A DNA stretch of 33,495 nt from Planctomycetota bacterium. Its GTDB lineage: Bacteria; Planctomycetota; MHYJ01; JACPRB01. How positions within the stretch are numbered: position 1 is the stretch's first letter; every line of letters starts with the position of its first letter. The position numbers and the translations under genes are program-made. Positions 1,448 through 31,981 of the stretch are shown here, in pieces. The stretch spans positions 1-33,495 of the forward strand of contig JACPRB010000163.1 in NCBI GenBank assembly GCA_016190155.1. The letters run 5' to 3'. The notes beneath the pieces were generated by a model. That model saw only the letters and a program-made list of their open reading frames with translations, was not told the origin of the DNA and ran no database searches.

Positions 1448-1969
1448 ATGAGGTCCGGCAAGACCTCGACAGCCTGTTCGGTCGGCGGGGAATCCCGACC
1501 CCCGACTTGGGATGAGCCCGTTGAACCGCAGAACGTCGTGGTGGTGGAGGGCGCCCGGAAGATCATCGTCATGGACCACGCCTCCAGCCTGCGCAAGGTG
1601 GTGGAGATCGTGCGACTGCTGGATGTCCCGCGCCCATCGATGGCCTGTCGCGTCGACGTGACTGTTCCGGAGGTGACGGCGGGCGAGGCGTCCGTCCCGG
1701 AGGCATTTCGGGATCTGGACCTCGGGGGCGCGACGGGATGCGCGCGCTTTGTGGTGATCGCCGAGGCGTCCGCGCGGGGTCGGGGGTCGACGTCGTTGGC
1801 ATCGGTGGACCTGGGCGGTACGCCCGCGCTCGTGGCGGAGGTCGATCGCCCGATCTTCGAGACGCGCGTTCAGTTGACGGAGGACTGGACGCTGTTGGGG
1901 GTAGGGACGAGCGGCAGGCAGGGATCGAAATGGGTCTTCCTCGCGCGGGGCGTGAGGACGGCCAAGTGA
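1448..1969 (+). CDS. Secretin N-domain-like (T2SS/T4P secretin short domain) protein, possibly a 5'-truncated relic
   Basis: NVVVVEGARKIIVMDHASSLRKVVEIVRLLDVPRPSMACRVDVTV resembles the secretin N1 fold (…VTD…LRRIEEIIRLLDVP…). No signal peptide; in-frame TGA at 1406-1408 just upstream, so the start is uncertain. Confidence 0.45.
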   Translation: MRSGKTSTACSVGGESRPPTWDEPVEPQNVVVVEGARKIIVMDHASSLRKVVEIVRLLDVPRPSMACRVDVTVPEVTAGEASVPEAFRDLDLGGATGCARFVVIAEASARGRGSTSLASVDLGGTPALVAEVDRPIFETRVQLTEDWTLLGVGTSGRQGSKWVFLARGVRTAK

Positions 1970-10462: not shown

Positions 10463-10524
10463 CGCGGAGATTCCCCCAATATCGGAAAAAACCGAAAGGG
10501 GAGATGAGGAGATTGGGAGATCGG
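10463..10524 (+). repeat. Dispersed intergenic repeat family C, copy 1
   Basis: CGCGGAGATTCCCCCAATATCGGAAAAAACCGAAAGGGGAGATGAGGAGATTGGGAGATCGG; aligns with 30709-30775 (+) and 30909-30966 (-). Confidence 0.6.
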
Positions 10525-10610
10525 TGAATTCATCGTTCATGCGCGACTCAATCGCTCCGTAGAACCTGCTGGGAGCACCTGGCCGCAGCCCGCTTGGGCG
10601 TTGTAATCGG

Positions 10611-19977: not shown

Positions 19978-19986
19978 ACGCTTACC
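19971..19986. repeat. Family B repeat CCGGTGAACGCTTACC carrying the stop codons of both convergent kinases
   Basis: Contains TGA (19975-19977, + strand) and TAA (19982-19984, - strand); minus strand reads GGTAAGCGTTCACCGG. Confidence 0.55.
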
Positions 19987-22900
19987 TCTGTTCCACCCAC
20001 TCGCCGGTCGCCCCGCTGGGATCGATGGCCCTGACCCGCCAATGATGGCTTGTTCCTGGCTCCAGGGCCGGGCTCTTCGTCCAGGCGACGTTTCCGCTGA
20101 GGACCGGCTCACTCGTCAAGAGTCGGGTCCCGTTGAACTTCTCGCCGATCCGCTTGAGCTCCATCTGCAGGCGCACCAGGCCGCCGTCGGGGTCGCTCAC
20201 CACCGCTTGCACGCGGCCCCCGTCGGTGACGACGCCGCCGCTCGGCGCCCACGGACGATGGTTGGCTCCTCTTTCGTCTTCGTAGATTTCGGCCGTCGTG
20301 TGGAATCTCACGAACGTATCATCCGGCCGGCCGCCCACGATCAGCAGCTTCCCTTCCTCGATCCGCACCGCGACCGCGCGGTCGCGCTTCTCGTTCAGGA
20401 GAGGTACTCCGTCCCCAGGCCCGGTCCACCGGCCGCCTTCGTACCGGCGCACTTCGTCGGATGGCCCGAAGCTATTCCCGCCCGCCTGAAGGATGACGCC
20501 TTTGCTCCGCGTGACCTCCGCGGCGAGCGCGCCTCTGCTCTCCGGCATGGATCCCGTGGAGATCCACCGACCTTCGGAGAAGACCTCGCAATCGGCGACA
20601 CTCACGGCGCCGTCGTTGCCGCCTGATCTGAGCACGCCGCCGTCCGGCAAGCGAATCAGCGAGAAGTACCCTCGAGGGCCTTGCAGGGGAGGCGCCGCTT
20701 GCCATCGCCCGCCTTCGGCATCCGGCGCGTAGATCTCGCACGTGTCGCGGGCTCCCAGATTCCGCTTGAATCCGCCGGCCACGAGGACGCGGCCATCGTC
20801 CATGCGGATCGCTCCGAAGGCGCGCCGAGACTCGTTCATCGCGGCGGTGGGCACGAATGAATTCGTGGAGGGCACAAATAGGTCGCATTCGCCCGTGCCG
20901 CCCCGGGGATCGTCCGGAAGGTTGGGGGGCACCATGGTCGCTCCACCCAAGACCAGGACGCGACCGTCCTCCAGCAGGATGCCCTGGTGGTGAACGCGCC
21001 CCGTGCTCATGGGGTTGCTCGTCGGCATCCAGTCCCCTCCTGGATCCAAGCAGAAGGCGGTGCTCAGCACCCACAACCGGCGCGGAACGTATCCTCCGGT
21101 GAGCAACACCCGACCGTCCTTTAGGAGCGTCAGGACCGGGAAGTGCCGCCCCTCCGAGAGAGGAAGGCTCGCTTCGGCGCTCCACGTCTCGGTCACCGGA
21201 TCGAACACTTCGCAGCTGGACAGGAGATCCTGCGTGTTCCGTCCGCAAGCCACCAAGACCCGCTCGTCCTCGAGCAACACCGCGGCATGACGTTCCCGTG
21301 GCGTGGCCATGTGGCTGGTGCTCGTCCAGCTCACTCCGATGAGCGCCGGCAGGTAGGGTTCTCTCTTGGCATCGAACTGGACGCGGACCTCGAGCTTCCG
21401 CGCGTCGCCGATGGCCACGGAGGCGAGACGGGGATGGTCTGGTTCGACGCCGTTCACCAGGATCTTGCCCGTCCTTGGCGTCCCCTCGGCGTCGACCATG
21501 ATCGGGCGGAGCATCCGTAGCCAGGCGCAACCGGCGTGATCTCGAAGCTCGGCATATCCGTCGGGCGCCAATGTTACGGAACCGACCCTCGATCGCAGGT
21601 CCAGATCGTATTCCGGAGCTTCGGGGGCCGATACGGTCAGCCATTCCTCCAGTCGTTCCTCGCTCCGCGCGACCAGCGATACGACGCGGCCGTGGTCCAG
21701 GCTCACGCGAATCTCCTCCGCTTGGCTCATCCGACCCACGACGAACCTCACGCACTTCTCGGCGAAGCTTGATCGAGTCAGGGCCTCGCGGACTTCGTTG
21801 AGCGTCGCCCGTGTCCAAGGCAAGGGGCGGGAGTTCCGCCACGCCGTGCGCACCTCCACCGGGCCGTCGGAGATGACGGCCGATCCGTCCTGTTCGGGCC
21901 AGGTCACGTTCAACCGCCGCTTCAACAGTCGCCATTGGCGCGAGGGCCCTCGCGCCACGGGCATGTTCTTCGCCCCTTCAGGACGGGCCCCGATCTCCCG
22001 AAGAAGACGGATTCTGCGAAGACCTTGTTCGGCCTCCTCGTGCTCGGGCATGATCGCCAGCACCCGCAGATAAAGGCCCAGGGCGTCGTCCTGCCGTCCC
22101 TCCCGCTCGAGGATGGCCGCTTGCCTCAGCAGGTCCTTGATTTCCCGTTCTCGCCCCGCTTCCGAGACCATCCAGCCCGCGATCGCCAGGAAGCCGGCGA
22201 GCAGGACTGCCCCTGCCGCTGCGCTCAACGCCGGGCGCGTCCGGACCCATCGTGCCGCCTTCCTGAGCGTTCCCGGTGGCTTCGCCAGGACCCGCTTTGC
22301 CTCGCGATATCGTTGCAACTCATCGGCGAATTCGTTTCCGTTGCCGTATCGGAGGTCCGGATTCTTTTCCAATGCCTTGAGGCAGATCGCCTCCAAGGCC
22401 GAACTCACCTTCGGATTCGCCTTGCGTGGCGGATACGGTTCCTCCAGCAGGATCCGCGTGAAGAGCTTCGCGAGGGTGTCGTCGACGAACGGCGGCTTGC
22501 CGGTGATGATCTCGTAGAGCATCGCCCCCATGGCGTAGACATCCGTCCGCGGAGTCATCTCCTCCAAGGATCCTCTCACCTGCTCGGGTGCCATGTAGAG
22601 CGGCGTGCCCATCGCCGTCCCCGCGTTCGTGATCGCTGAGGTCGAATCCGCCAAACGTGCCATCCCGAAATCCCCGACCTTCGGTTCCCCTTCCGGAGTG
22701 ACCAGGATGTTCGCCGGCTTGAGATCCCGGTGAACGATTCCGCGCTCGTGCGCCGCTCCTACGCCCCTCGCCACTTTCTCCAGAGTTTCCAGCGCCGCCT
22801 TCTGGTCCATCGCCCTCGTCTGCAGGAGTCGGTCCAGCGACAGTCCCTGCACCAGCTCCATCACGATGCAGAGTCCCCCATGCGCTTCTCCCGCGTCGAA

Positions 22901-23101
22901 CACCTGGACCACGTTCGGGTGCGACAGCCCCGCCGCCAGCCGCGCCTCCCTCAGAAAGCGGTGCCGTGCCGCCTCGGTTGTTCCGCGATCCGACCGCAGC
23001 ATCTTGATCGCGACCATCCGATTGAGACTCTGGTCCCAAGCCTTGTACACCGCTCCTTGCGCGCCTTCCCCCAAATGCTCCCGCAGCTCGTAGCGCTCCA
23101 T
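19982..23101 (-). CDS. Receptor-like Ser/Thr kinase: kinase - TM - TPR-like linker - Kelch propeller - Fn3-like
   Basis: GEGAQGAVY, VAIKML, IVHRDLKPANILV, DFGMA, APEQ; TM AGAVLLAGFLAIAGWMV; about 6-7 Kelch units (MDDGRVLVAGGF…CEIYAPDAEGGRWQAAPPL). Start at MERYELREHLG. Confidence 0.9.
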   Translation of the reverse strand: MERYELREHLGEGAQGAVYKAWDQSLNRMVAIKMLRSDRGTTEAARHRFLREARLAAGLSHPNVVQVFDAGEAHGGLCIVMELVQGLSLDRLLQTRAMDQKAALETLEKVARGVGAAHERGIVHRDLKPANILVTPEGEPKVGDFGMARLADSTSAITNAGTAMGTPLYMAPEQVRGSLEEMTPRTDVYAMGAMLYEIITGKPPFVDDTLAKLFTRILLEEPYPPRKANPKVSSALEAICLKALEKNPDLRYGNGNEFADELQRYREAKRVLAKPPGTLRKAARWVRTRPALSAAAGAVLLAGFLAIAGWMVSEAGREREIKDLLRQAAILEREGRQDDALGLYLRVLAIMPEHEEAEQGLRRIRLLREIGARPEGAKNMPVARGPSRQWRLLKRRLNVTWPEQDGSAVISDGPVEVRTAWRNSRPLPWTRATLNEVREALTRSSFAEKCVRFVVGRMSQAEEIRVSLDHGRVVSLVARSEERLEEWLTVSAPEAPEYDLDLRSRVGSVTLAPDGYAELRDHAGCAWLRMLRPIMVDAEGTPRTGKILVNGVEPDHPRLASVAIGDARKLEVRVQFDAKREPYLPALIGVSWTSTSHMATPRERHAAVLLEDERVLVACGRNTQDLLSSCEVFDPVTETWSAEASLPLSEGRHFPVLTLLKDGRVLLTGGYVPRRLWVLSTAFCLDPGGDWMPTSNPMSTGRVHHQGILLEDGRVLVLGGATMVPPNLPDDPRGGTGECDLFVPSTNSFVPTAAMNESRRAFGAIRMDDGRVLVAGGFKRNLGARDTCEIYAPDAEGGRWQAAPPLQGPRGYFSLIRLPDGGVLRSGGNDGAVSVADCEVFSEGRWISTGSMPESRGALAAEVTRSKGVILQAGGNSFGPSDEVRRYEGGRWTGPGDGVPLLNEKRDRAVAVRIEEGKLLIVGGRPDDTFVRFHTTAEIYEDERGANHRPWAPSGGVVTDGGRVQAVVSDPDGGLVRLQMELKRIGEKFNGTRLLTSEPVLSGNVAWTKSPALEPGTSHHWRVRAIDPSGATGEWVEQR

Positions 23102-23109
23102 CTGTTGCA

Positions 23110-23138
23110 AGAATAACGCACCCGGCCTCGGGCACAAG
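23110..23138 (-). promoter_or_regulatory. Putative promoter CTTGTG-17-TATTCT of kinase 1
   Basis: -10 box ends 8 nt before ATG 23101; aligned counterpart at 26616-26644. Confidence 0.4.
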
Positions 23139-23188
23139 GGGGGCGGTTCAGCCTCGCCCGTCCGTGACCGCATTGCACCTCGCATAGC

Positions 23189-23250
23189 CGTTCACCGCAG
23201 CGCGCAGAGAGCGCGGAGAAGACGCAGAGCTTCCGAAGAATAAAGAGGTC
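23189..23250. repeat. Family A-like repeat (GCAGAGAGCGCGGAGAAGACGCAGAG)
   Basis: ttcaccgcagcgcgcagagagcgcggagaagacgcagagcttccgaagaataaagagg. Confidence 0.5.
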
Positions 23251-23421
23251 AGCGCATCCGAATCGGCGCAAGGGAGCCCCTGAAGTGCTCGTTCTTCAGT
23301 TGGAACGTCTTCTCTGCGATTCCGTCCGCGTCGCTCGGCGCTCTTCCTGGCGAACGCCTCGGCCTCAACGCGGACTTTCCGGAAGTCGGCGTGAACCGCG
23401 ATCACGACCCGGCGGTGTAAT

Positions 23422-23530
23422 CGTTCAGCCGTTCATTCGTTCTTCCGTTCATCGGTTCTCGCGTTTACCCGTTCCTGACGGACCAGAAGCCAGGAACGGA
23501 TGAATGGGTGAACCGGTGAACGGTTACCCG
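23422..23530. repeat. Family B heptamer/octamer cluster (CGTTCATTCGTTCTTCCGTTCATCGGTTC… / inverted GGTGAACCGGTGAACGG)
   Basis: Degenerate CGTTCAnC units on both strands; overlaps the kinase 2 TAA stop. Confidence 0.6.
23469..23499 (-). terminator. Hairpin CCGTTCCTG-13 nt-CAGGAACGG downstream of kinase 2
   Basis: Perfect 9-bp inverted repeat 24 bp downstream of the kinase 2 stop; no strong T-tract. Confidence 0.4.
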
Positions 23531-26500
23531 GGGGTTACGTCCGCGATCTCGAATTCCCCCTCCTCGAATTCCACCCACGCTCCGGCCGCTTCGTTCGGAT
23601 CGATGGCCCGGACGCGCCAATGGTAGCTTGTTCCGGGCTCCAGGGCCGGGCTCCTCACCCAGCCGGCGCTTCCGCTGGAGACCGCCTGGCTCGTCAGAAG
23701 CCGCGTTCCGTTGAACTTCTCATCGATCCGCTTGATCTCCACTTGGAGGAGCACCCTACCGCCGTCAGGGTCGCTGACCATCGCCCGCACGATGATGTCG
23801 CGCTCCGCAGAGCGGCTTCCGTCGACGATGACTTCGCCGCCAGGCCGGCACTGCTGCAAGCCGCTGGGTGCCGACGGACGTTGGTTGACTTCTCCTCCGT
23901 CGTCGTAGATCTCGGCCGTCGCGGAGAATCTTTCGAACGTATCATCGGGGCGGCCACCGACGATCAGCAACTTCCCTTCCTCGATCCGCATCGCGACCGT
24001 GCGGTCGCGCTTCTCGTTCAGGAGAGGTTCTCCGTCCCGCGGTCCGGTCCACCGGCCGCCTTCGTACCGATGCGTCTTGTCGGACGGCCCCCATATATTG
24101 CCACCCGCCTGAAGGACGATGCCTCTGACCGTGTCGATCTCCGTCGCGAGCGCGTTCCTGCCCTCCGGCATGGATCCCGTGGGCATCCACCGACCTCCGG
24201 AGAAGACTTCGCAATCGGCGACACTCACGCCGCCGTCATTGCCGCCCGATCGGAGCACGCCGCCATCCGGCAAGCGAATCAGCGAGAAATACCCTCGGGG
24301 GCCTCGCAGGGGAGGCGCCGATTGCCATCGCCCGCCTTCGGCATCCGGCGTATAGATCTCGCACGTGTTGCGCGCTCCCAGATCCTGCTTGAACCCGCCG
24401 GCGACGAGAACGCGGCCGTCGTCCATGCGGACCGCCCCGAAGGAACGACGGGACTCGTTCATCGCGGCGGCGGGCACGAAGGAATTCGTGACGGGAAGGT
24501 ACAGATCGCTCGTGGGGGTGCCGCCGCGCGGGTCCTCCAGATAACCCGGGGGCACCATGGTCGCCCCTCCTGCGACCAGGACACGACCGTCCTCGAGCAG
24601 GATGCTCTCGTGGCGGACACGCCCCGAACTCATGGGGTTCGTCGTCGGTGTCCAGTCCCCGCCCGGATCCCAGACGAACGCCGTGCTCAGCACGGAACGG
24701 AGGCTCGAAACGTATCCCCCGGTGAGCAGTACCTGGCCGTTCTTCAGGCACGTCAACACCGGGAGCAGCCGCCCCTCCGATGCGGGAAGACTTGCCGCGC
24801 TGCTCCACGTTTCCGTGACAGGGTCGAACACCTCGCAGGCGGACAATGCCTCGTCCTCTTCATTCTGCCCGCACCCCACCAGGACTCGCCCGTCTTCTAG
24901 CCGTGTAAGGCCATGCCATTCGCGGGAGACGGCCATGTGACTGGTGCCCGTCCATCCCACCCCGACGAGCGCCGGCAGGAGGTGTTCCTTCTTCGCATCG
25001 AACCGGACGCGAATCTCGAGCGTCCTCGCCTCGTCGATCGCGATGGAAACGAGATGAGGAGGGTCGGGTTCGACGCCGTTCACCAGGATCGTTTCCGCCG
25101 TTCTTGTTCCCTCAGCGTCGATGACGAGCGGACGGGGCATCCGTAACCAAGCCGAATCGACGAGATCCCGAAACTCGACGTATCCGTCGGGCGCCAAAGT
25201 CACGGAGCCGATTCCGGGTCCGAGTTCCAGCTCGTATTCCGGAGCTTCGGCGGAAGATACCGCCGACCATTCCTCCCATCGTTCCTCGCTTCTTGCGACG
25301 AGCGAAGCGAGGCGGCCATCGTTCAGGCTCAGCCGAATCTCCTCCGCCTGGCCCAGCCGATCCACGATGAATTTCAGGCACTTTTCGGTGAAGCTCGATC
25401 GGATCAGGACCTCACGAACCTCCGCCGGTGTCGCGGGCGTCCAAGGCGAGAGACGAGCGTTCCTCCGCGCCGTTCGCACCTCCACCGGGCCGCCGGCGAG
25501 GATGGCCGATTCGTCTTGTCCTGGCCGGGTCACGTTCAGACGTCTCCTCAGCAATCGCCATTCGCGGGATGAGCGGCTCCGCGGAACGGTCACCCCCTCT
25601 TTCACTGCATCATGCTTGGGCCCCACAGCCCGCATTCGCGCCTCCCGCTTCGTCGGTTCTCCCGTCTTGGCAATCAACCAGCCTACGGCCATGAAAAGCC
25701 CGGCGAGCAGGACCACGGCAGCCACCGGGCCGAGCGCTTGATGGGTTCGGATCCATCGTGCCGCTCTTCTCGCCCATCCGGGCGGTCTTGCCAAGACCTG
25801 CTCCGAGTCGCGATATCGTTTCAAGTCGTCCGCGAACTCGGTTCCGCTTGCGTATCGCAACTCCGGGTCCTTCTCCAGCGCCTTGAGGCAGATCGCTTCC
25901 AGCGCCGCGCTCGCCTTCGGATTCGCCTTTCGCAGAGGAACCGGTTCCTCCAGCAGGACTCGTTTGTAGAGCACGGGAATGGCGTTTTCAACAAACGGCG
26001 GCCTGCCTGTGACGATCTCGTAGAGCACGGCTCCCATCGCGTAAACGTCCGTCCGCGGCGTCATCTCCGCCAAGGACCCTCTTACCTGCTCCGGGGCCAT
26101 GTAGAACGGCGTCCCCACAGGCGTTCTCGCCCTGGTGATCGCCGAGGTCGAATCCACGAAACGCGCCATCCCGAAATCCCCGACCTTCGGTTCCCCCTCC
26201 GATGTCACCAGGATGTTCGCCGGCTTGAGATCCCGATGCACGATTCCCCTCTCATGGGCCGCCCCGACGCCGCGCGCCGCTTTCTCCAGTATCTCCAGGG
26301 CCGTCTTCTGATCCATCGTCTTCGCCTGCAGGAGCCGCGCCAGCGAAAGTCCGTGCACCCGCTCCATCACGATGTAGAGCTCTCCTCGCGCCTCTCCCAC
26401 GTCGAACACCTGGATCACGTTCGGGTGCGACAGACCCGCCGCCAGGCGGGCCTCCCTCAAGAAGCGGTGTCGCATGGCCTCGTTCGTTCCCCACTCCGGC

Positions 26501-26607
26501 CGAAGCAGCTTGATCGCCACGCTCCGATTGAGGCTGGTGTCCCAACCTTCGTACACCGTGCCTTGTGCCCCTTCACCCAGTTTCTTCCTCAGCTCGTAGC
26601 GCTCCAT
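23524..26607 (-). CDS. Receptor-like Ser/Thr kinase paralog: kinase - TM - Kelch propeller - Fn3-like
   Basis: GEGAQGTVY, VAIKLL, HRDLKPANILV, DFGMA, APEQ; TM VAAVVLLAGLFMAVGWLI; Kelch units nearly co-linear with 19982-23101. Start at MERYELRKKLG; upstream ORF extension rejected. Confidence 0.9.
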   Translation of the reverse strand: MERYELRKKLGEGAQGTVYEGWDTSLNRSVAIKLLRPEWGTNEAMRHRFLREARLAAGLSHPNVIQVFDVGEARGELYIVMERVHGLSLARLLQAKTMDQKTALEILEKAARGVGAAHERGIVHRDLKPANILVTSEGEPKVGDFGMARFVDSTSAITRARTPVGTPFYMAPEQVRGSLAEMTPRTDVYAMGAVLYEIVTGRPPFVENAIPVLYKRVLLEEPVPLRKANPKASAALEAICLKALEKDPELRYASGTEFADDLKRYRDSEQVLARPPGWARRAARWIRTHQALGPVAAVVLLAGLFMAVGWLIAKTGEPTKREARMRAVGPKHDAVKEGVTVPRSRSSREWRLLRRRLNVTRPGQDESAILAGGPVEVRTARRNARLSPWTPATPAEVREVLIRSSFTEKCLKFIVDRLGQAEEIRLSLNDGRLASLVARSEERWEEWSAVSSAEAPEYELELGPGIGSVTLAPDGYVEFRDLVDSAWLRMPRPLVIDAEGTRTAETILVNGVEPDPPHLVSIAIDEARTLEIRVRFDAKKEHLLPALVGVGWTGTSHMAVSREWHGLTRLEDGRVLVGCGQNEEDEALSACEVFDPVTETWSSAASLPASEGRLLPVLTCLKNGQVLLTGGYVSSLRSVLSTAFVWDPGGDWTPTTNPMSSGRVRHESILLEDGRVLVAGGATMVPPGYLEDPRGGTPTSDLYLPVTNSFVPAAAMNESRRSFGAVRMDDGRVLVAGGFKQDLGARNTCEIYTPDAEGGRWQSAPPLRGPRGYFSLIRLPDGGVLRSGGNDGGVSVADCEVFSGGRWMPTGSMPEGRNALATEIDTVRGIVLQAGGNIWGPSDKTHRYEGGRWTGPRDGEPLLNEKRDRTVAMRIEEGKLLIVGGRPDDTFERFSATAEIYDDGGEVNQRPSAPSGLQQCRPGGEVIVDGSRSAERDIIVRAMVSDPDGGRVLLQVEIKRIDEKFNGTRLLTSQAVSSGSAGWVRSPALEPGTSYHWRVRAIDPNEAAGAWVEFEEGEFEIADVTPG

Positions 26608-26615
26608 CTGAGGGA

Positions 26616-26644
26616 AGCATAGCGCACCGGGGCGCAGGAGCAAA
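26616..26644 (-). promoter_or_regulatory. Putative promoter TTTGCT-17-TATGCT of kinase 2
   Basis: -10 box ends 8 nt before ATG 26607. Confidence 0.4.
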
Positions 26645-26663
26645 GGGGCGCGGTCGCCGCCGG

Positions 26664-27929
26664 CTAACGCTCGTAGACGACGCGCCCACCGACGAGGGTC
26701 ACGACCGCCGCTCCGCGCAACTCCCGCCCCGTGAAGGGACTGGACCGGCCGCGCGATCGGAACCGCGCCGGATCCACCGTCCATCGCAGGTGCGGATCGA
26801 CGATCGTCACGTCCGCGACCGCGCCGTCGGCCAGCGTCCCGCGGTCGATCCCGAGGATCCGCGCCGGCGCCGTCGTCATCGCCTCGATGGTGCGCATGGC
26901 GGACACGCGCCCGGTCGCCACGAGATCCGTGAGCACGACCCCCAGCGTCGTCTCCAGGCCCACGACGCCGTTGGGGCACGCCGCGAGTTCGCGCTCCTTC
27001 TCCTCGACCGTGTGAGGCGCGTGGTCGCTGGCGATGGCGTCGATCGTGCCGTCCGCCAGGGCGGCGACGAGCGCGTCGACGTCCGCCTGCGCCCGCAGCG
27101 GCGGATTGACCTTGAATCGCGATTCGTAGGCGCGCAGGCACTCCTCGGTGCAGGTCAGGTGATGCGGCGCCGCCTCCGCGCTGACGGGGGCCCCGGCGGC
27201 CTTCATGAATCGGAGGATGTCCACGGTCTCGCGCGCGCTGACATGCGCCAGATGCAAGCGGCCGCCCGTGAGGCGCGCCAGCAGCGCATCGCGGGCCGCC
27301 ACGGAAGCCTCCGCGACCGCCGGCCAACCGCGCAGCCCGAGCTCGACGGAGACGCGCCCTTCATTCATGACCGCGTCGCGCGTCAGCATCGTGTCTTCGC
27401 AATGACTGATCACGACTTTGTTCCAGGGGCGCGCGTACTCCAACGCGCGGCGCAGGAGCTCCGAATTGGCGATCGGGTGGCCGTCGTCGGAGAAGGCGAC
27501 CGCGCCGGCCTGAGCCATGGTGCCCAGCTCCGCCAGCTCCTGGCCCGCCAGGCCCTTCGAGACGGCCCCGACGGGGAAGACGTTCGCCAGCCCTGTTTCG
27601 GCGGCGCGCGCGCGGACGTAGGCGACGCCGGCGGCGGAATCGACGGGCTGACCCGCGTTGGCCATCGCGGCGACGGAAGTGAAGCCGCCCGCCACGGCCG
27701 CGGCGGCGCCGCCGGCGATCGTCTCCTTGTCCTCGCGGCCGGGCTCGCGCAGGTGGACGTGCATGTCGATCAGTCCCGGGACCACCCATCGGCCGGAGGC
27801 GTCGATCGTACGGTCGGGTTTCCCGGGACCGCGCGCGATTCGTCCGTCTGCGATCCAGAGGTCGCCCGGTTCGTCTCGACGCGAGGCCGGGTCGAGGATG
27901 CGACCGCCGCGGATCAGGATCGTGCTCAT
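26664..27929 (-). CDS. pyrC: Dihydroorotase
   Basis: VVPGLIDMHVHLREPGREDKETIAGG, VISHCED, AHVSARETV, SAEAAPHHLTCTEE, IASDHAPH. ATGA overlap with pyrB. Confidence 0.93.
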   Translation of the reverse strand: MSTILIRGGRILDPASRRDEPGDLWIADGRIARGPGKPDRTIDASGRWVVPGLIDMHVHLREPGREDKETIAGGAAAAVAGGFTSVAAMANAGQPVDSAAGVAYVRARAAETGLANVFPVGAVSKGLAGQELAELGTMAQAGAVAFSDDGHPIANSELLRRALEYARPWNKVVISHCEDTMLTRDAVMNEGRVSVELGLRGWPAVAEASVAARDALLARLTGGRLHLAHVSARETVDILRFMKAAGAPVSAEAAPHHLTCTEECLRAYESRFKVNPPLRAQADVDALVAALADGTIDAIASDHAPHTVEEKERELAACPNGVVGLETTLGVVLTDLVATGRVSAMRTIEAMTTAPARILGIDRGTLADGAVADVTIVDPHLRWTVDPARFRSRGRSSPFTGRELRGAAVVTLVGGRVVYER

Positions 27930-28899: not shown

Positions 28900-29933
28900 A
28901 TCGCGCGCCCCCACAACATCCGTTCCTTCCAGTCGGATGGGGCCGCTTCCAGGATCCTCCGCTGGCGCTCGGTGAAAACGACGGGCGCTCCGGGGCGAAT
29001 CCTCTCGGACAGCCCCAATGCGCGAAGCATCGCCCGGCGCAGGCGGTCCAGCCCTTCGCCCTTTAGAGCGCACACCCCCAGCTCGCGACGGCCCGCCGGC
29101 TCCAGATCGATCTTCGTCCGGACCTCCAGGAGCGGGCGGTCGAGCCGCTCGGCGGCTTCCCGCCGCGCGAACTCGCGAAGCATCAATACGAGATCCGCCT
29201 TTCGGCCCTGCGCCCGCGCGCGTTCGATCGACAGCCGCTCCAGAAGCCCCGCGTCCGCAGTCAGCCCCGCGGTGTCGACGAGCACCAGCGGAATCCCTTC
29301 GATCGCGAGCGTCTCCTCGACGGGATCGCGGGTGGAACCGGCCGTGGCCGAAACCAGCGCGCGATCGCGCTCCACTAGGGCATTGAAGAGGGTGGACTTG
29401 CCGACGTTGGGGTCGCCCATGATGGCGACGCGCCGCGGAGTCACGAGCGCGCGTCCGAGCGCAGCAGTGGCCAGAAGGCTGTTCGGCCGCGTCGCGCGGC
29501 GCACCGCCTTCGCGAGCGCCCCGTCGGCTTGATCCGCCAGCATCGCCGCCGCGCGTCGCGTAAGCGCGCCGGGCAGCAGGAGCATCGCCTCCGCCCGTGT
29601 GCGATCGAGACGCCGTGCCGCGACGGCGCGGTCGAGCACGAATGCGCGATCGACCTCGCGTACGCCCAGAGCGGCGATGACGGCCCGCGCGGGTTCGACG
29701 CCGCCGTGACAGGAGATCTCCACCGCGGGCTCGCCCGTCGCGCCGCGCGGCACGGTGCGCGCCAACACCTCGTCGACGATGCGGCCGTAGGCGACGCGAT
29801 CGGGGGCGCCGATGGGGATGAACCGTCGCACGAGCTCGAGCGCGCCGGGTCCGAGAATCTCGACGACGGCGATGCCGCCCATGCCGGGGGCGGTCGCGCG
29901 GACCGCGACCGTCGCGTCAGCGGGAGAGCGCAT
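28896..29933 (-). CDS. MnmE/TrmE-like GTPase, short and divergent, lacking the C-terminal CIGK motif
   Basis: [80 protein letters not shown]; ends …LWGRAI. Confidence 0.75.
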
Positions 29934-30657
29934 ACGATACGGCGATGCCCTCGAGCGTGAGCGCGGGCACGACTTCGTCGAAGAGGTCGCGATAGAGGGG
30001 CGCGTCGCCGCCGGTGCCGATGGCGCGTGCGCGGCCGCCGACTTCGCGGCGGATGGCGGCGAGTCCCGTGCGGATGAGTCCTTCGAGCCCGAAAGAAACC
30101 CCGGCCTGGATGGCGTCCTCGGTCGTGCGGCCTACGGCGCGACGAGTTCGGCGCGGCGTCACCTCCGGCAGGAGCGCCGTGTGCTCGCGCAAGGCGCGGA
30201 CCTGCATCGCCAGTCCGGGAGCGATCATCCCGCCGATGAATTCCCCGCGCGCGTTGACGACGTCGAAGGTCACGGCGGTGCCCAGGTCCACGACCACGCA
30301 CGCGGCCCGCGCACGCGCCCATGCGGCGGCGGCGTTGGCCAGGCGGTCGAGCCCGGCCGCGGCGGGCGGCCGGTACCGGTTTCGGATGGCGGGAGGAAAA
30401 TCGTGGCCGAGCTGCGCCGGCGTGCGCCCCGTCGCCCGGAGGACGGCGTGCGTGAAGCGGGCTTCGACGGCCGGATGGACGGAGGAGTACGCGAAGGCCG
30501 CTTTCGCGAGGCGCGCATCGTGATACAGGGAGGGTGATCCGATCATGGCGTGCGAGAGCGCGGCGGAGGTCTTGAGGCGTGGATGGTCGCCGTGTTGGAG
30601 CTCGAATGTGGCGATGTGCCCGCGCGTGTTTCCGATGTCGACGGCGACGATGCGCAT
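29917..30657 (-). CDS. coaX: Type III pantothenate kinase
   Basis: [71 protein letters not shown]. Confidence 0.9.
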
Positions 30658-30670: not shown

Positions 30671-30708
30671 CAATCACGGGGCCCGGTGCGCAAACATGGT
30701 CGTCATCG

Positions 30709-30775
30709 CGCGGAGATTTCCCAGATGCCCGAGAAAGACGGTAGGAGATGGGGAGATCCGGAGATCGGGAGATGG
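30709..30775 (+). repeat. Dispersed intergenic repeat family C, copy 2
   Basis: CGCGGAGATTTCCCAGATGCCCGAGAAAGACGGTAGGAGATGGGGAGATCCGGAGATCGGGAGATGG. Confidence 0.6.
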
Positions 30776-30803
30776 AAAACAACGATCCGAGATGAAGCCG
30801 ACC

Positions 30804-30839
30804 AACCGCGGATTGCGCGGATCCGCGGAATCCGTGGTT
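30804..30839. repeat. 36-bp near-perfect palindrome AACCGCGGATTGCGCGG-AT-CCGCGGAATCCGTGGTT (family D)
   Basis: 17-bp arms, 15/17 complementary, centred on AT at 30821-30822. Confidence 0.75.
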
Positions 30840-30908
30840 GCTTCTCTTGAATCCATCATCGGCCTTAGCTTCGTCGCGGCTCATTGATGGAAGACACGAC
30901 TTTCATCG

Positions 30909-30966
30909 CCCCATCCTCCCCTCTCCACATCCCCCTTCGTCTCCCGGTGGTTCGGGGAATCTCCGG
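30909..30966 (-). repeat. Dispersed intergenic repeat family C, copy 3 (inverted relative to copy 2)
   Basis: Minus strand CCGGAGATTCCCCGAACCACCGGGAGACGAAGGGGGATGTGGAGAGGGGAGGATGG. Confidence 0.5.
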
Positions 30967-31887
30967 TCATCGCTGTCCGCGCTGGAAGTCCGGGCGGAAG
31001 TCGAGGGTGTAGGGGCGGCCGGCGCGTTCGACCACGACGATCATGGCGCCCGCGTTGCGGAACTGGGGGTTGTTGGCGATGTTGACCATGTCGGCGCGGT
31101 CTTTCACGGCCATGCCGTTGACGGTCTTGATCACGTCTCCGTCGAAGAATCCGCGCTGGGAGGCGAAGGTGCCGGCCATGTCGATCTTGATGCCGCCGCT
31201 GGGGTACGCGGACACTTGGACGTCCTGCATCAAGGTCTCGAGGTTGTTGTAGGCCCAGTCGATCTCCGTGCGGTCGATGAGCCAGGATTCGTGGGACTCG
31301 GTGGAGGCGGTTCGGCGGCTCTTCGATTGGGACAGGTCGAAGGGCGCGCCGTCTCCGTCACCCGATCGACGTGGGCCTCCGCCGGCGGTCGTGCCGCCCA
31401 TCGCGTCGTCTCGTCGCAGTTCGATCTGTCGCCGGCCGTCGGTGAAGAACGCGCCGTACCGGGTCAGACGCACGAGCTTCCACCCGCGCAGGTCGGACAC
31501 GGGCTGGCCGTGGCTGGTGATCTCCTGGCCGCAGTAGGCGTTCACGCCCATGCCGGAGGAGGTCACGATGAGGTAGGCGACTTCCTCCGGAACGGGACAT
31601 CCGCCGACGAACCGCGCGACGCGTTCCAATTCGTTCGGCCCTGCGGCCACGGCGGCCGGACCCGTGATGGGGGTCACGGGATTGCCCAGATTCGCCAGAT
31701 GCTTGTAACTCGCCTGCGCCGGCGGCGGGGTACGAATGCCCGTGCCCGGCGCGTCCAGGACCACTTGTTCCAGGTGGTTCTTGGACTCGAACAAGATCAG
31801 GTATTGGAAGGCGAACACGAGGATCGCCATGCCTAAGAGCACGTTCGCGACCCAGAGCAATCCGTTCAGCAGCTTCATGTACCGCAT
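30967..31887 (-). CDS. GspC-like type II secretion/pilus-associated inner membrane PDZ protein
   Basis: N-terminal TM NGLLWVANVLLGMAILVFAFQYLIL; SYKHLANLGNPV; C-terminal PDZ RGFFDGDVIKTVNGMAVKDRADMVNIANN…IVVVERAGRPYTLDF. SD GGAG upstream. Confidence 0.65.
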   Translation of the reverse strand: MRYMKLLNGLLWVANVLLGMAILVFAFQYLILFESKNHLEQVVLDAPGTGIRTPPPAQASYKHLANLGNPVTPITGPAAVAAGPNELERVARFVGGCPVPEEVAYLIVTSSGMGVNAYCGQEITSHGQPVSDLRGWKLVRLTRYGAFFTDGRRQIELRRDDAMGGTTAGGGPRRSGDGDGAPFDLSQSKSRRTASTESHESWLIDRTEIDWAYNNLETLMQDVQVSAYPSGGIKIDMAGTFASQRGFFDGDVIKTVNGMAVKDRADMVNIANNPQFRNAGAMIVVVERAGRPYTLDFRPDFQRGQR

Positions 31888-31981
31888 TCGCCGTCTCCGA
31901 GGGTTTAACGGCCTCACCTGGCGATGGGTTGGGTCGATCGTGACGGTCGCCGGGGAGATCCGCCTCGGCCGAACGGATCCT

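Follow-up and report, generated by a model that had tools for sequence, protein, structure and literature searches.

Two MITE-like elements, one nested within the other, between coaX and its upstream gene in a Planctomycetota bacterium

Bacterial MITEs such as Correia/NEMIS, RUP, and ERIC have been reviewed (PMC2229807), and an internal segment is present in some Correia variants and absent from others (PMC2229807). In pneumococci, the nesting of repeats came to light when one repeat was cut out of the sequence and the other was realigned (PMC3049150), and in Haloquadratum small repeats lie inside one another on a large scale (PMC3119063). Insertion sequences that target REP palindromes are also known (PMC1525189). 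Here, we analyzed a 33,495-nucleotide stretch of DNA from a Planctomycetota bacterium, hereafter the window. The analysis indicated that region 30702-30974 consists of two MITE-like elements, termed B and C, with B lying within C (Table 1). The region very probably arose by two successive insertions of transposase-less MITEs, C first and B into C later. B and C both appear to be new families within an established type, the bacterial MITEs.

Table 1. Features of the nested region and its surroundings (positions in the window).
Feature	Position	Strand	Remarks
Left target-site duplication of C	30702-30710		GTCATCGC; 8 bp perfect, 8/9 if 9 bp are taken
Left arm of C	30711-30771	+	CGGAGATTTCCC..., with GGAGAT repeats
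Left 8-bp duplication of B	30772-30779		ATGGAAAA; site in C where B landed
B, inner MITE	30780-30886	+	107 bp; TIR CAACGATCCGAGATGAAGC / GCTTCGTCGCGGCTCATTG
36-bp near-palindrome	30804-30839		Central stem of B
Right 8-bp duplication of B	30887-30894		ATGGAAGA; 7/8 against the left
Right arm of C	30895-30965	-	Ends in GGGGAATCTCCG
Right target-site duplication of C	30966-30974		GTCATCGC; includes the TGA stop of the upstream gene
Solo C arm	10465-10526	+	Degraded
coaX, downstream gene	29917-30657	-	Type III pantothenate kinase, PF03309
Upstream gene	30967-31917	-	No Pfam match; earlier called gspC-like

The original prediction described a nested inverted element, in which copies 2 and 3 of one repeat (30709-30775, + strand; 30909-30966, - strand) face each other around a palindrome. 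The arms are indeed mutually inverted and exceed chance, with a local alignment score of 41 against a shuffle maximum of 35, but they belong to a single C, as its left and right arms, which can be told apart. Likewise, the palindrome is self-complementary at 32 of 36 positions, above shuffled sequences, but is the centre of the separate element B and not a free-standing structure. The predicted solo copy (10463-10524) resembled both arms, the scores being 60 (shuffle maximum, 35) and 50 (shuffle maximum, 30). Facing left and right arms of C recurred at four other loci (L005, L030, L019, and L018), in line with the expectation that paired inverted arms occur elsewhere.

Together with B, the outer element C is 255 bp long and carries the ends CGGAGATTTCCC and GGGGAATCTCCG; without B, it is about 140 bp. 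Among the matches listed, C with its ends was found at about 20 places in its own genome, and these copies share the defined ends CGGAGATTCCCC / GGGGAATCTCCG, that is, terminal inverted repeats (TIRs). The octamer at 30702-30709 is repeated at 30966-30973 with 8/8 identity. The probability of such a match by chance at fixed spacing in the window was about 5.5e-5, and that of an 8/9 match with register freedom was about 0.002. Most C copies are truncated or unclear at their flanks, and a probable flanking duplication was read at the window copy (8/8) and at one weaker case, L133, where the flanks AGGGTTTGG / AGGATCTGG agree at 7/9 positions. The duplication of C would thus measure 8 bp, or 9 bp if a single mismatch is allowed; the longer reading would fit L133.

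The inner element B has TIRs of approximately 20 bp (CAACGAYCCGCGATGAAGCT), and its ends are of the type CAACGA..CGCGATGAAGCT (CAACGA.../...TCGTTG). Searching the 20-bp end with three or fewer mismatches yielded 31 matches in the own genome and none for the reversed pattern, and an end model located 44 B ends on many contigs of the 4.49-Mb draft genome (both among the matches listed). Nineteen copies, 39-258 bp in length, could be read at both ends. Their left and right flanks agreed at 75.7% of positions at a length of 8 bp, compared with 35.5% when left and right flanks were swapped between copies (z = 7.4; 0/5000 shuffles), while all other lengths from 4 to 13 gave z values of about 3 or less. 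The duplication was perfect at L003 and L007, and in the window it reads ATGGAARA. The duplicated sites are A/T-rich, A and T making up 232/304 bases; in the outer flanks, their share is one third. Thus, B shows several hallmarks of a MITE: TIRs, a target-site duplication of fixed 8-bp length, short size, many dispersed copies, and no room for a transposase gene.

The order of the insertions was read from unfilled sites. When B and one duplication were removed from the window sequence, the remainder aligned without a gap through the junction with the C copy of L005, which lacks B and whose right end is cut off by another repeat (GGGAGATGGAAAACACGACTTT vs GGGAGATGGGAAACACCACTTT); the sole gap, of 4 bp, lies about 10 bp past the junction. 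L030 contains both C arms and an unfilled tip, and unfilled tips were also present at L019 and L018. Since these C copies exist without B, and the alignment with L005 runs through the junction unbroken, we concluded that B arrived later than C. A second unfilled B site was identified: in L006, B interrupts a GTTC repeat that is found uninterrupted in L005. The predictions of a nested structure and of a small non-autonomous mobile element, for which a search for target-site duplications and empty sites had been proposed, are supported, as two distinct elements each have their own inverted ends and flanking duplication and the outer one also exists unfilled. Other repeats were also noticed. L005, L006, L004, and L008 contain a further intergenic family built of GTTCACCCGTTCAACCGTTC units. 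At L058, a B-type element (TIR 1501-1520, minus strand) is broken by a sequence of about 140 bp, GGGTCGTCACG...GGACAGGCCC, with TAAG on either side, another case of nesting. L072 (G000:C310) carries a second B-type element within a C arm, after CGGAGATTCCCAGGATGCCCGAGAAAACA and away from the tip.

At least two unrelated interiors occur between B ends, namely the 36-bp palindromic core AACCGCGGATT..AATCCGTGGTT, which is repeated at many loci in the genome, and the GTGTAAGAAAGGGAGA core. This raises a broader idea, which we regard as very unlikely: B-type ends could be a cassette for unrelated palindromic cores that are also found alone, with a preference for inserting at the tips of hairpins, and hairpins nested concentrically would then accumulate genome-wide in the lineage. 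A preference of B for palindromes was considered and rejected, as significant flanking complementarity was detected at only 3 of the 19 copies (L001, L002, and L006), and that at L002 is a short off-centre stem. The other 16 lie outside detectable palindromes, and the set shows no targeting. A repeat of about 165 bp at L014, L020, L021, L022, L026, and L028 has the ends AACCACGGATT.../...AATCCGTGGTT and a near-identical interior, GGACCTGTCGGACAAGGATGTAATGAGGGCGAGG..., and has its palindromic core in common with B.

Returning to the two-insertion reading, we compared relatives. In 59 relatives, B ends were no more frequent, or hardly more frequent, than matches of the reversed-pattern control. 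With the end model, G001 and G004 gave one marginal B match each among eight relatives, compared with the 44 in the own genome (matches listed). As far as these genomes allow testing, the predicted difference in copy number holds: B is essentially absent from relatives and, within the family, is restricted to the window genome. Searches of other species returned 11 single matches over unrelated phyla, near our rough estimate of the chance number, and these were not accepted. Plasmid and phage collections gave no match, and the sole Rfam match, to the n-myc IRES, was below threshold and was dismissed.

The GGAGAT core of C was distributed differently from its ends. Among the model matches listed, GGAGAT...ATCTCC hairpins mostly without C ends gave 119 rows in G003, which count both strands and so represent fewer distinct places, and 36 in G004; G001 and G002 had none. 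The GGAGAT hairpin therefore predates C or is more general than it. It is in this light that the outer arms could be viewed as a host-evolved 3' hairpin, a terminator or mRNA-stability structure, with B alone being mobile; some of the end-less hairpins seem to follow a stop codon directly (L081), and C in the window also starts at one. The common ends of the C copies, the 8-bp flanking duplication of the window copy, and the orthologous junction of G003, which lacks the hairpin, speak against this view and make it very unlikely. Intergenic GGAGAT/ATCTCC hairpins are abundant in G003 (L202, L204, L206, L074, and L081) and G004 (L201 and L205), and some appear to lie directly after a stop codon; ORF calling is noisy in this G+C-rich DNA.

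The region had also been called REPIN-like, that is, two REP sequences in inverted orientation that form a doublet and are mobilized by a RAYT (Y1) transposase. The inverted arms do lie in an intergenic region and fold into a hairpin, and Y1 genes are present in some relatives. Nevertheless, the own genome (88% complete) has no match to PF01797, the conserved ends are long CAACGA-type TIRs outside the palindrome in place of a REP tag (GTAG/CGTC) at its end, and B is surrounded by strict 8-bp duplications. To our knowledge, Y1 single-strand transposition makes no target-site duplications. The REPIN reading is highly improbable, and we dropped the label. A recombinational mosaic of repeats with chance flank matches is scarcely credible: the intergenic regions do contain several repeat families at high density, with many truncated copies, but identity between the flanks of the 19 B copies has its maximum at a length of exactly 8 bp, and the unfilled C matches through the junction.

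A helper transposase or RAYT, which the original prediction proposed to look for, did not emerge either. Ends in common with an autonomous transposon are expected of a MITE, although for many bacterial MITEs no such partner is known. Neither the surroundings of the B ends examined nor two DDE_Tnp_1 genes and one short Transposase_mut fragment of this 88% complete genome revealed an autonomous partner with B ends. This is not strong evidence of absence, because the assembly is a draft of 360 contigs and several B ends sit at contig ends. A candidate 7.3-kb composite transposon on C136, between two facing ends, was discarded, as these ends are parts of separate elements, each short or truncated. 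The DDE_Tnp_1 reading frame at L121:1138-2607 passes in its upstream part through a GTTCATCCGTTC-type intergenic repeat.

Under the two-insertion model, C would first have entered between two co-directional genes at the upstream stop codon, which would have duplicated GTCATCGC without disrupting the upstream reading frame. Subsequently, B would have entered C at its A-rich tip, with duplication of 8 bp. Each was presumably moved by a transposase acting in trans on the TIRs, probably of the DDE type. C is located at the TGA of the upstream gene, before coaX, and the stop codon falls inside the duplication. The upstream gene, which adjoins a T2SSE ATPase gene, is 309 nt from coaX in the window. 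In G003, of the same family, the orthologous pair is adjacent, with 13 nt from the stop codon to the coaX start and no hairpin at the junction; this spacing indicates that a compact gene pair received the element. On the coding strand, the 255-bp insert was predicted by RNA folding to form one continuous long hairpin (-123 kcal/mol, z = -3.5); since B entered close to the middle of C, a single fold of the entire insert is still possible. Were it part of the transcript of the gene pair, the predicted hairpin would separate the upstream gene from coaX. Elsewhere in the window, 19982-27327 holds two adjacent large minus-strand ORFs with long stretches of 72-82% DNA identity at a spacing of about 3.6 kb, a tandem gene duplication.

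That the locus is layered in order, C first and B second, with scars that can still be read, shows that the repetitive intergenic hairpins of this lineage are at least partly transposition products. The locus is also a natural case in which a compact gene pair gained a 255-bp hairpin, and the precise ends and the 8-bp duplication length provide a handle for seeking the helper transposase.

Compared with the known systems, the nested pair is a well-preserved case of a known type of genome parasite, ordinary in kind, and represents no new system or mechanism. The REPINs and REP elements with RAYT (PMC3116915, PMC3733652) similarly have inverted repeats forming intergenic hairpins, but the window genome has no detected Y1/RAYT gene and B has strict duplications and long TIRs. 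As with insertion sequences in REP palindromes (PMC1525189), a mobile element has landed inside a palindromic repeat; here, however, the intruder is a MITE, most copies of which lie outside detectable palindromes. The pneumococcal BOX, RUP, and SPRITE families (PMC3049150) likewise cluster, insert into one another, and form hairpins near genes, although their sequences, host, and duplication differ. The terminal repeats of B had no match to anything searched. The closest likeness is to the bacterial MITEs (PMC2229807), which, like B and C, are about 100-200 bp, noncoding, and intergenic, with TIRs. Their target-site duplications are shared by B and probably by C, and their long stem-loop transcripts have a predicted counterpart in the hairpin of the window. 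Most of the reviewed MITEs have TA termini, whereas B has CAACGA.../...TCGTTG and an 8-bp A/T-rich duplication.
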